64,000 nucleotides of DNA from Leptodesmis sichuanensis A121 (GTDB lineage: Bacteria; Cyanobacteriota; Cyanobacteriia; Leptolyngbyales; Leptolyngbyaceae): positions 1,240,001-1,304,000 of the forward strand of contig NZ_CP075171.1 in assembly GCF_021379005.1 (NCBI RefSeq), written 5' to 3'. The translations under genes and the position numbers were made by a program. How positions within the stretch are numbered: the first letter of the stretch is position 1; the number at the start of each line of letters is the position of its first letter. The notes under the pieces are model-generated. The model was not told where the DNA came from, did no database searches, and worked only from the letters and a program-made list of their open reading frames with translations. Positions 32,653-37,066 of this stretch are shown here, one piece after another.

Positions 32653-33191
32653 AGTAACCCCCTCATGGTTTTCTCTGGCAGCCATGTTACACGCAGAATC
32701 TGCGATCGACGCATTTGATTATCTGCTTACGGGATTCACGGAGAAACTGCACCTGCTTAAACAAAACTTCATCAATTCCAATAAATTTATGTGAATTAGA
32801 AGAAAAAGGGTTCCTGATGTTTTTACGGACTCACCTCGATTGATATTTTATTTAAGGATGGGCAAACGCATTCTGGTTTGAGGCAGCATATATGGCTTTT
32901 GAAAAAAAACTCACGCAATCTCTAAACTGTACAATCCCCTGAGTGCCATAGCCTTCCGCTCATCTAGGAATGCTGCGATCGCTGCGTTTTTTACCTCTGG
33001 TGCAACAAAAATCCAGAAAAGCACTGATGTTGCCACCATAACTCAGACAACGTGGTGCAGCAGTGAAAGACCCAAAATCACCCGCTTAGGGAATTTATAG
33101 CTCCCTTTTAACCCTGATTCTGCGTTCGGGCTAATTGCTGACGCTTTGCAAATGCTGTTTTGACTGCTAGCCAGAGTTCTTGAATCGTTAC
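32653..33191. other. Divergent intergenic region, no gene seen
   Basis: 539 bp between the proline-rich secreted protein and the adenylation-acyltransferase gene. It should carry both promoters. It is A/T-rich near 32760-32930. I see no RNA gene and no reading frame I trust. Confidence 0.6.
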
Positions 33192-35798
33192 ATGATGAAT
33201 ATGTTTGAATCTTTTTCTCATTTTCACGATCGCCTGGCCATTCTGACTGAAGACGGGCTACGTATTTCTTACGAGGAACTAGACCGGTTAATTGAAGAAT
33301 TTAAATCCCGTTTTTCAGCAGGCCGAGGAGTTGCTCTGATTGAATGTGAAAATTCATTAAATTCGATTGTTGCTTATCTGAGCGCCCTTCGTGCTGGTTG
33401 TCCAGCGCTGCTAGTCGCCTCAAAACAGCCTGAAGTTAACCAGAAACTGCGGACTCAATTTTCCGCTTTATATTACGTTGATCCCGTCGCCAATCAGGTA
33501 ACCATCCATCCATCAGGAGCGGCAATTCAGTTACATCCTGATTTAGCGGTTATCCTCTCAACCTCTGGCTCAACTGGAACGGCAAAGTCGATTCGGTTGT
33601 CGTACAAAGCGCTTGAAGCTAATGCGAGATCGATCGTCGAATATCTTACTATCCATGCAGACGATCGGGCACCCACAACCCTGCCCATGTATTATTCCTA
33701 CGGGCTTTCAGTGATCAACTCGCATTTATTAGCGGGGGCAACGCTAGTCGTAACGCAGAAGTCCGTCGCTGAACCAGAGTTTTGGCAACTCTTTGATGAA
33801 AATCGTTGTACAAGTTTTGCAGGTGTCCCTCATAGCTATGCCTTGATTGAAAAAAGTGGTGTAAAAACAGCCGATCGCAAGACTTTACGGTATGCAACGC
33901 AAGCAGGCGGACGACTGGAACCCAATCGTGTCAAAGCGTTAGCTGAGCAAAGTCAGAAAGAAGGCTGGCAATTTTTTGTCATGTACGGCCAAACTGAGGC
34001 AACAGCCCGGATGGCTTATCTACCACCAGACCAGGCATTGGCCAATCCCCACTGTATTGGTATTCCTATTCCAGGGGGTAAATTTCGGCTAATCAATGAT
34101 CAGGGAGATGAAATCGAGAACCCAGACGAAACTGGCGAACTGGTCTATACAGGCGACAACGTGATGATGGGCTATGCGCTCAGTGCTGAAGACCTATCAC
34201 GCGGCTATGATCTCACAGAATTACGAACAGGAGACCTGGCGCGTCGAACCAGCAATGGACTTTACTATATTGTTGGCCGGAAAAAGCGCTTTGTGAAGCT
34301 ATACGGATTGCGCATCAGTCTGGATGAGGTTGATGGCTGGTTACTTGATCATGGCTACAGTGCCGTCAGCACAGGTCGCAATGATACCTTGTGGATCCTG
34401 ACTACCACGGCGACCAGTGTACCCCTCATTCGCGAGTCGGTTGCAGATTGGTTGGGTTTACCTGCAGCTTCAATTCATGTTGGTGTGATAGAAGCGATCC
34501 CCCGGAAAGCAAATGGCAAGATTGATTTCAGGGAAGTCAGCCGTTTGGCTGACCAGGAGGCTCAAAAACTGGATGCGGCGATCGTGGCTCAGGCTAGAAA
34601 AGCGCCCCAAAATACCGTTCGAGATATCTTTGCTGCACGTTTCCCCAACCAGGAGATTACACCAGGGTCGTCTTTCATCACCCTTGGCGGTACATCCTTA
34701 GACTATATCGACATGATGATCGAACTGGAAAAGCGTGTCAGTAACTTGCCGCCAAACTGGTATGAGCTAAGCCTTCGTGACCTGGAGCAGCAGCAAGGGA
34801 AGAGTCGTTTCTGGCAAAAAATTGAGCCACAAATCTTCCTGCGATGCCTTGCAATTTCGCTGATCGTGATCGGGCACCTCACGGACTTCGATTACGGGGG
34901 AACAGGTGCTGTCCTATTGTTGATGATTGCGGGCTTTAATTTTTCCCGATTCCAACTTCCCAATATTATCGCCACAGGATCACCTCGACCAGTGTTAGCA
35001 CTAGCTGCAACCATTGCAATTCCAACTATTGCCTATCTGCTGATCGAGCAGACAGTGTTCCATAAGCTGCATTTTCCATCCCTACTCCTATTCTCTAATC
35101 TGATTCAGGCCAATGCCAATCAGGGTCTTTCCTATTGGTTTATTGAAGTCTATATACAAATCCTATTGATTGGGGCATTGGCAATCAGCTTAATCCCTAA
35201 GAAGTACATATCTAATACCCGTCAGGAAACTATTGTTCTTGGCCTGATAGTACTTTCCCTATTGCTGAACCAGCTTGGCCCTGTAGTTTGGGATACTACG
35301 CTATTGTATAACCGAGTACCTCACAGCTTGTTTTGGTTCTTTGCCTTCGGCATCGGTGCTCAGACGTTTAGAGATCCATTGTCCAAATTAATTTTATCAG
35401 TAACTTTTCTTGCTGCGGTCACACTCAACTTTGGCATGGAAACTCCCTATCGAATTCTCACCTATGGTGGTTTATTGCTGATCTGGCTCCCCTGGATCAA
35501 GGTGCCAACCATGTTGAAATCGCCCATCTCTCAGGTTGCCAGCGCCTCCTTGTTCATCTATCTGTCTCACTTCCAGTTCCATTCACTGAGTGAGAAAATT
35601 TTTGGCAACCATACCTGGATAGGTGTAATTTTTGCTCTTGTTGGCGGGGCTATTACCTGGAAACTTTATCTTGTCTGCTGGTCTCACTTAGTAAGCATCC
35701 AACCGAGACGCATTGGTACTAAACCAAGAACACAGACAAAAGTTACTTCAGCAGTTGAGCAACCGCAGGAACGGGAGAAAGTTTTGATCAACAAATAA
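33192..35798 (+). CDS. Adenylation domain + carrier domain + membrane acyltransferase-3 fusion
   Basis: The 868-residue protein has three parts. Residues about 10-460 form an AMP-binding adenylation domain (STSGSTGTAKS 124-134, YGQTEA 265-270, TGDLARR, GRKKRFVKLYG, and the catalytic Lys443 in PRKANGKIDF). Residues about 470-540 form a carrier domain with Ser502 in LGGTSLDY as the phosphopantetheine site. From about 545 on lies a 10-segment membrane domain with the acyltransferase-3 signature R-x10-H (Arg551, His562). It should activate a carboxylic acid, load it on its own carrier and pass it to a membrane acyltransferase. The acid and acceptor are unknown. Logic is like DltA-DltC plus DltB. 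ATG 33192 is preferred to TTG 33180. An acyltransferase-3 gene follows. Confidence 0.85.
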   Translation: MMNMFESFSHFHDRLAILTEDGLRISYEELDRLIEEFKSRFSAGRGVALIECENSLNSIVAYLSALRAGCPALLVASKQPEVNQKLRTQFSALYYVDPVANQVTIHPSGAAIQLHPDLAVILSTSGSTGTAKSIRLSYKALEANARSIVEYLTIHADDRAPTTLPMYYSYGLSVINSHLLAGATLVVTQKSVAEPEFWQLFDENRCTSFAGVPHSYALIEKSGVKTADRKTLRYATQAGGRLEPNRVKALAEQSQKEGWQFFVMYGQTEATARMAYLPPDQALANPHCIGIPIPGGKFRLINDQGDEIENPDETGELVYTGDNVMMGYALSAEDLSRGYDLTELRTGDLARRTSNGLYYIVGRKKRFVKLYGLRISLDEVDGWLLDHGYSAVSTGRNDTLWILTTTATSVPLIRESVADWLGLPAASIHVGVIEAIPRKANGKIDFREVSRLADQEAQKLDAAIVAQARKAPQNTVRDIFAARFPNQEITPGSSFITLGGTSLDYIDMMIELEKRVSNLPPNWYELSLRDLEQQQGKSRFWQKIEPQIFLRCLAISLIVIGHLTDFDYGGTGAVLLLMIAGFNFSRFQLPNIIATGSPRPVLALAATIAIPTIAYLLIEQTVFHKLHFPSLLLFSNLIQANANQGLSYWFIEVYIQILLIGALAISLIPKKYISNTRQETIVLGLIVLSLLLNQLGPVVWDTTLLYNRVPHSLFWFFAFGIGAQTFRDPLSKLILSVTFLAAVTLNFGMETPYRILTYGGLLLIWLPWIKVPTMLKSPISQVASASLFIYLSHFQFHSLSEKIFGNHTWIGVIFALVGGAITWKLYLVCWSHLVSIQPRRIGTKPRTQTKVTSAVEQPQEREKVLINK

Positions 35799-35902
35799 GC
35801 CATTAAAGCCTTCATGAACTATAGCGACATGAGTTTGCATCTGGAGTTAAATTTGTAGTCTTTTGGTAAATCCATAATGAAATTCCTGAATCAGGTTTAT
35901 TT

Positions 35903-37066
35903 ATGACAACAACACCTAGTATCCAAACACATGCCGCTATAAACGTATGCAAAAAGGCCAATTTTCTCTACTACATTCACAACTTTCGTGGCTTTGCAAT
36001 TTTAGCGATCGTCGCTCATCATGTAATTATTTCTCTAGAGTGGAAGAATTCAGGCATCGAAGATATCGTTTTGCTCTTGATTGGCAATGGCTCTGTTTAC
36101 TTTGTCTTTATTGCGGGCTTCTTATTCCAGTTTCTTTCCTCAAAATATGAATACAAGAGCTATAGCAGCCCTAAATCAGTCGTGAGAGAAGAGGAAGTTG
36201 TGAGAGGCTTTCCCTGCGGAAAATCTCTCACAATCCAGATAGGATTGCTATATTTATTCAAAAAACTCCAATATGTCATAGCCCCTTATATTCTTGTCTC
36301 TCTCCCTGCAATTCTATTAACAGTCTTGGAAAGTTCTTTATTTAGCGCCCCAGACTGGTTTATCACGAAATTTTCTGGTTGGCCGCTTGCTGGCCAAATT
36401 GTGATGTATCTTCTGACAGGCTCATTACTGAGCCAGTTCTGGTTCATTCCCATGATCACAATTTTTTATCTAGTTTCACCATTGCTGATCTGGGTTGATA
36501 GACATCCGCGATTTTATTGGATCCTGCCGGCATTGCTCGTGATAACAGCGATCGTGCCTCGCCCTGAAGAGAGCAACGCGATTCAATCGTTCCTTCACTT
36601 TGCCTCTATCTATGTAGGAGGTATGTTTTGTTCACACTATCGAGAAAAACTGCTTCCCCTGATTCAAAAAAGGTACTTACTATTTCTCAGTTTAGTTGTG
36701 CTGCTGAGTGGCCTTCAATACTGGTTCAAGCCTGATTTAGAAACGTTCAATTCGCTCGCTAAACTGGTACTTTCTCTACTGATTATGTGTTTCTTATGGG
36801 CTAAAGAATCTCAGCTACCACAAATTTTTAACCGCTCTATGGGGTTTGTCGCAGAGCTAAGTTTTGGAATTTATTTCTTACATGAGTACTTCATCGTCCT
36901 ACTTCCTGGCGTTGAAAAAAGATTAGGGCTAAACAACTTCCCTACTAAGGCTAATTTATTGAGCTTTTTACTGAATTATCTGGTGGTACTCGGTGCCAGT
37001 ATCGGTACTATTTTAATTATCAAAAAAATTCTGGGGAAAAATAGCCGTTTCCTGGTGGGTTGTTAG
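35903..37066 (+). CDS. Acyltransferase-3 (OafA/YrhL type) membrane protein
   Basis: This 387-residue protein has about 10 membrane segments. The signature is near the start: HNFRGFAILAIVAHH, where Arg is followed ten residues later by the second His. The family moves acyl groups onto sugars or lipids across the membrane. The gene is visibly more A/T-rich than its neighbours and lies 104 bp after the adenylation-carrier-acyltransferase gene on the same strand. It may supply a second acylation step or take acyl groups from the same carrier. It may have been acquired by transfer. Confidence 0.9.
   Translation: MTTTPSIQTHAAINVCKKANFLYYIHNFRGFAILAIVAHHVIISLEWKNSGIEDIVLLLIGNGSVYFVFIAGFLFQFLSSKYEYKSYSSPKSVVREEEVVRGFPCGKSLTIQIGLLYLFKKLQYVIAPYILVSLPAILLTVLESSLFSAPDWFITKFSGWPLAGQIVMYLLTGSLLSQFWFIPMITIFYLVSPLLIWVDRHPRFYWILPALLVITAIVPRPEESNAIQSFLHFASIYVGGMFCSHYREKLLPLIQKRYLLFLSLVVLLSGLQYWFKPDLETFNSLAKLVLSLLIMCFLWAKESQLPQIFNRSMGFVAELSFGIYFLHEYFIVLLPGVEKRLGLNNFPTKANLLSFLLNYLVVLGASIGTILIIKKILGKNSRFLVGC

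Follow-up and report, generated by a model that had tools for sequence, protein, structure and literature searches.

The window analysed here is a 64,000-nucleotide stretch of Leptodesmis sichuanensis A121 (contig NZ_CP075171.1, positions 1,240,001 to 1,304,000), and all positions below count from its first nucleotide. It carries an open reading frame (33180-35798, forward strand) that encodes an adenylation (A) domain, a carrier or thiolation (T) domain and an acyltransferase-3 (AT3)-type membrane domain in a single chain (Table 1). Candidate starts are ATG 33201, ATG 33192 and TTG 33180. Since the closest orthologues, from Leptolyngbya sp. FACHB-8 (L021; 78%) and Leptolyngbyaceae MO_188.B28 (L022; 71%), both begin with MFESF, ATG 33201 is the likely start of this A-T-AT3 fusion; residues are numbered from ATG 33192. 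The initial annotation of this DNA had recognized one chain with adenylation, carrier and membrane acyltransferase parts and with Lys443, Ser502, Arg551 and His562 intact. We confirm that these residues are correctly placed, and they are identical in all 51 aligned sequences. Full-length relatives occur in cyanobacteria, actinobacteria and proteobacteria, and thus the architecture is far from chance.

Profile scans of the protein and its relatives identify A, T and membrane domains only, with no condensation or release domain (the criterion for a nonribosomal peptide synthetase). The carrier match to PF00550 falls under the Pfam cut-off in the window copy; most scanned relatives pass it, the best with E = 2e-7. 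A Foldseek comparison of the full-length model with the PDB places the adenylating enzyme PltF first (E = 3.7e-26). For the membrane domain, an AlphaFold2 model built from 20 sequences has ten transmembrane (TM) helices, the ninth of them bent, and a mean predicted local distance difference test (pLDDT) score of 88.9. HGSNAT structures lead the PDB matches of this domain (probability 0.97, E = 0.14, TM-score 0.45). The window protein has no match to PF01757 (Acyl_transf_3), but several relatives reach the threshold, with E-values as low as 7e-12 and 6e-11. Motifs of the AT3/TmAT enzymes are R-x10-H and DxxR in TM1, RxxR in TM3 and SxxxY in TM9 (PMC12423673), and in OafB Arg14 and His25 are essential (PMC9833829). 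Arg551 and His562 of the fusion have the spacing of this OafB pair, and the SxxxY motif is present in TM9 (Ser786/Tyr790) in 50/51 sequences, with one gap.

The named search of the genome collection, queried with the carrier-AT3 part, returned matches in cyanobacteria, actinobacteria, one betaproteobacterium and Parabeggiatoa. Among 395 sampled Actinomycetes genomes, 71 have a match at E <= 1e-100, which in ~66 (~17%) spans the full length. Plasmid records with the fusion include those of Rhodococcus, Mycolicibacterium, Pseudarthrobacter, Rhizobium, Sinorhizobium, Shinella, Leisingera and others. The tree groups the three cyanobacterial proteins on a single branch, with one proteobacterial and one actinobacterial branch as neighbours. 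Because this trio is separate, the tree gives no evidence of a recent transfer from actinobacteria, and we discarded horizontal acquisition of the window gene from that source as unsupported.

The neighbours of the actinobacterial genes point to iron. We clustered all open reading frames of 48 actinobacterial loci (40 regions picked by match score and 8 from the named search). One family of ferric substrate-binding proteins (SBPs) is found in 35/48 loci, as is one permease/ATPase group; the most frequent other family outside the ATP-binding cassette (ABC) components occurs in 8/48. A representative SBP matches the ferric-binding protein 7w3w with E = 1.6e-71. The relative orientation of fusion and importer varies and the gaps range from overlap to ~6 kb, indicating a repeated association and not one inherited operon. 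Independent annotation places iron ABC transporter genes directly after the fusion in Rhodococcus pseudokoreensis R79 and R. fascians D188, and directly before it in Mycolicibacterium chubuense NBB4. A survey of genomes for the fusion and its neighbours, suggested in the initial annotation, finds the fusion widespread, with iron-importer neighbours in most sampled actinobacterial loci.

Most of these loci carry predicted IdeR/DtxR boxes. For DtxR/IdeR, experiments in Corynebacterium have verified the consensus TTAGGTTAG(G/C)CTAACCTAA (PMC1382209). A position counted as near a start if it lay no more than 250 bp before or 60 bp into the gene for the fusion or the ferric binding protein. Predicted boxes with at least 14/19 matching positions number 58 near starts (23,570 positions) versus 2 elsewhere in the loci (777,675 positions), and boxes with at least 15/19 number 28 in the actinobacterial loci and 0 in shuffled sequence. 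A predicted IdeR-type box is present in 39/48 loci, and several loci that lack the importer (L109, L129, L134, L144, L034) have one directly before the fusion gene.

Boxes of other iron regulators are predicted in other phyla. In rhizobia, where the fusion gene stands alone, a motif of the RirA type (TGA-N9-TCA; PMC8822346) lies 39-79 bp upstream in 8/10 loci (background, 0.07 per 200 bp), a contrast whose nominal probability would overstate the case because the loci are partly related. Plasmid pB218 of Metabacillus sp. B2-18, the single example of a split version in this analysis, encodes, in this order, an acyl carrier protein, an AMP-binding protein, an MBOAT protein, a 304-residue protein and an Fe(3+) ABC transporter. 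The AMP-binding protein is 40% identical to the window A domain and has the same pocket motifs, and the MBOAT protein matches the DltB structure 6bug (E = 9.4e-27) and TIGR04091 (E = 2.5e-48). By eye, the 304-residue protein shows SGNH-like motifs (GASHS and DHLN), and it is probably an SGNH protein; a PDB search with it gave nothing useful. Predicted Fur boxes matching 17/19 positions precede both the acylation genes and the transporter, where 0.28 sites of at least 15 would be expected per locus. The same iron-linked chemistry thus apparently works here with another type of membrane transferase, and this supports an outward transfer. The likening of the activation, thiotemplate and membrane-transfer chain to Dlt in the initial annotation gains from this DltB-like partner; the iron link itself, visible through neighbours and three kinds of predicted iron-regulator box in homologues, had been missed.

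The pocket of the A domain, mapped by eye against GrsA-PheA, includes Ser169, Thr236, Gln237, Met264 and Arg273. Thr236, Met264 and Arg273 are invariant in the 51 sequences and Gln237 is present in 50. Ser169 occupies the position at which amino-acid-activating domains have the Asp that binds the amino group; across the 51 rows this position is Cys in 37, Val in 9 and Ser in 4, with one gap. Because of this replacement an alpha-amino acid is an unlikely substrate, and the activated acid is probably of another kind, possibly a hydroxy, dicarboxylic, aryl or fatty acid. Of the amino, hydroxy and fatty acids originally considered, the amino option thus becomes the unlikely one and the other two stand. 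We set aside an assignment of the acid from the pocket by eye, as the loss of the Asp is clear but the invariant Arg273 points to no particular acid. DltA profile models score far under their cut-offs, and the top NCBIfam match, TIGR03098, reaches E = 5e-47, yet its 160 bits lie below the cut-off of 592.

We propose that the cytosolic A domain would activate a carboxylic acid, probably not an alpha-amino acid, and load it onto the phosphopantetheine arm of the carrier domain next to it. The fused ten-helix AT3-type domain could then carry the acyl group, by way of Arg551/His562, through the membrane and onto an acceptor outside the cytoplasm. In the family this activity would be part of the iron-starvation response, and its likely purpose would be to produce or expose an acylated iron ligand outside the cell, from which the FbpABC-type importer would receive Fe(III). 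Domain order, retained residues, fold, linkage and iron-box enrichment are computed results, whereas the direction of transfer, the acid, the acceptor and an iron role of the cyanobacterial copy are part of the proposal. On balance we favour a transmembrane acylation machine, Dlt-like but not Dlt, that serves an extracytoplasmic acceptor and belongs to a family tied to iron starvation; the biology of this family most likely concerns iron acquisition. We suggest more tentatively that in several phyla a dedicated machine, either the A-carrier-AT3 chain or a split set of ligase, carrier, MBOAT and probable SGNH protein, builds an extracellular acyl ligand on which Fe(III) is caught and given to FbpABC, free of siderophores.

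The one-chain transmembrane acylation enzyme is real and widespread, and it appears to be undescribed. In the open-licence literature that we searched there is no description of the fusion, of its iron link or of a Dlt-like iron system; a listing in a rhizobial regulon is possible. The siderophore-free delivery of bare Fe(III) to FbpA-type importers in Gram-positives is poorly understood. If the proposal holds, an iron-regulated extracytoplasmic acylation machine, encoded with the importer in most sampled actinobacteria, would be a concrete and testable answer to how Fe(III) is delivered. Transmembrane acylation would then serve nutrition besides envelope protection, and a large family labelled only "AMP-binding protein" would gain a function.

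Several observations weigh against an iron-linked AT3-type machine. All of the regulation is predicted from sequence. Upstream of the window gene no Fur box above chance is found (the best match, 12/19, is reached by 52% of shuffles), and L021 and L022 have no iron box above chance either. None of the three adjoins an iron importer, and they sit on a branch of their own. Among the proteobacteria, the RirA-type motif was not found upstream of the Rhodobacterales and Phyllobacterium members, and we rejected the candidate iron ABC transporters beside the Phyllobacterium and Rhodobacter members, as their binding proteins are of the sugar and pyrimidine-precursor types. The structural match of the acyltransferase domain to the known AT3 fold is non-significant by E-value, making the HGSNAT match support and not proof. 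The Asp of the DxxR motif is absent, with Val, Ile or Ala at position 548, and so is the second Arg of RxxR (Arg586 is invariant; position 589 is Leu). The DxxR Asp is reported to be dispensable in OacB (PMC12423673).

It is therefore quite possible, if short of what we expect, that the cyanobacterial branch differs from the rest and decorates an envelope glycan or lipid, with no role in iron. The separate branch, the solo gene and the missing box and importer are all consistent with this, and stand-alone relatives of the A domain (35-43% identical) occur in glycan clusters; in Parabacteroides and Deinococcus, for example, polysaccharide clusters hold related ligases whose carriers are separate. 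The motifs YSYGLS, TQAGG and MYGQTEATARM, however, are nearly the same in the cyanobacterial and the iron-linked members, which suggests the same acid, although the closest glycan-cluster ligases share these motifs as well. As neither an iron box nor an importer lies beside the window copy, we infer its iron role from homology and pocket conservation; the host encodes two FutA-like proteins elsewhere in its genome.

Another explanation retains the iron link and places the product elsewhere: the acyl group would be joined to a small amine or polyol in a siderophore-type synthesis, yielding a secreted metallophore, with the membrane domain coupling synthesis to export. Predicted iron regulation and the linkage to an Fe(III) importer suit this too, and the A domain is generally similar to siderophore ligases such as MbtM (E = 3.7e-20). 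We consider it unlikely, since no further gene for siderophore biosynthesis, for export or for a receptor is conserved in the 48 actinobacterial loci, and the SBP found with the fusion belongs to the FbpA type and not to a siderophore-binding one. The Bacillota version, with a DltB-like MBOAT and a probable SGNH partner, also has the usual layout of extracytoplasmic polymer acylation.

The enzyme that we favour, a transmembrane acylation machine, resembles several known systems in part. Like Dlt (DltA, DltC, DltB and DltD; teichoic-acid D-alanylation), it combines adenylation, carrier loading and a membrane acyltransferase. Unlike Dlt, it is one chain with an AT3/TmAT domain and no MBOAT, lacks the Asp235-type residue for D-Ala and has iron-linked homologues; the Metabacillus split version is the only one with a DltB-like MBOAT. 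With AT3/TmAT enzymes (OafB, OatA, HGSNAT) it shares the ten TM helices, R-x10-H in TM1 and SxxxY in TM9, and it departs from them in two motif residues, as described above, and in its probable donor, the fused acyl carrier instead of acyl-CoA. The fusions named in the AT3 literature that we searched are to SGNH and alanine racemase domains, and adenylation-carrier fusions are not among them. Exosortase-A-associated acyl-CoA ligases (TIGR03098) and polysaccharide-cluster acyl carrier protein ligases resemble the A domain of the fusion, but they have no fused carrier or acyltransferase and no iron link has been shown for them. Iron-regulated trios of ligase, carrier and acyltransferase are known from petrobactin (AsbC/AsbD/AsbE) and mycobactin (MbtM/MbtL/MbtK) synthesis. 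Their transferases are soluble and the trios lie within full siderophore clusters, whereas the fusion has a membrane-domain transferase and lies in no conserved siderophore cluster.

Table 1. Features of the fusion gene and of the gene that follows it (window positions).
Feature	Position	Strand	Remarks
A-T-AT3 single-chain acylation enzyme	33201..35798	+	865 aa from likely start ATG 33201
Adenylation (AMP-binding) domain	33228..34556	+	PF00501, E 6e-41
Catalytic Lys443 of adenylation domain	34518-34520	+	Invariant 51/51
Carrier (thiolation) domain	34623..34796	+	PF00550, E 0.003 in window copy
Phosphopantetheine-accepting Ser502, within LGGTSL	34695-34697	+	Invariant 51/51
AT3/TmAT-type membrane acyltransferase domain	34824..35687	+	10 TM helices; PF01757 in relatives
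Arg551, first residue of R-x10-H	34842-34844	+	Invariant 51/51
His562, last residue of R-x10-H	34875-34877	+	Invariant 51/51
P0002, stand-alone acyltransferase-3 gene	35903..37066	+	PF01757, E 1.5e-21
Dispersed repeat of ~92 bp, in frame within P0002	36158..36252	+	11 other genomic copies or large parts

An A/T-rich AT3 gene had been noted after the fusion, and P0002 bears this out: its stretch has 41% G+C versus ~51% for the window, and it matches PF01757 (Table 1). The accompanying suggestion that both genes act jointly in one pathway did not hold up and is now highly improbable. The two are adjacent on the same strand, with a gap of 104 bp, but neither orthologue genome (L021 and L022; G390/G391) contains a match to P0002 and only 1/57 other relatives has one; the base composition of P0002 differs and it holds a dispersed repeat. 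P0002 is a genuine stand-alone AT3 gene and a neighbour not linked to the fusion. The other copies of its repeat are scattered in the genome and are 83-100% identical; a hairpin lies inside the repeat at 36198-36233. The insertion lengthens P0002 by ~30-40 residues and resembles the Rickettsia palindromic elements.

Parts of the fusion also recur in other combinations. In further cyanobacteria (L002, L023, L031, L032; L003-L006, L025-L028, L037) the carrier-AT3 part is joined to two other adenylation lineages, and the didomain therefore looks like a reusable module. Candidatus Parabeggiatoa (L030, 1157-6498) encodes two fusions in tandem, the first of which has a different polytopic membrane domain that by eye is like HGSNAT-type acyltransferases. 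In Deinococcus, Ponticoccus and Rhizobium beringeri (L162 5383-10771, L175 3894-10792, L163 8098-14145), related ligases are found beside carrier, SDR, LuxE-like and LuxC-like genes, a combination suggesting that a carrier-bound acyl group is reduced to the aldehyde.

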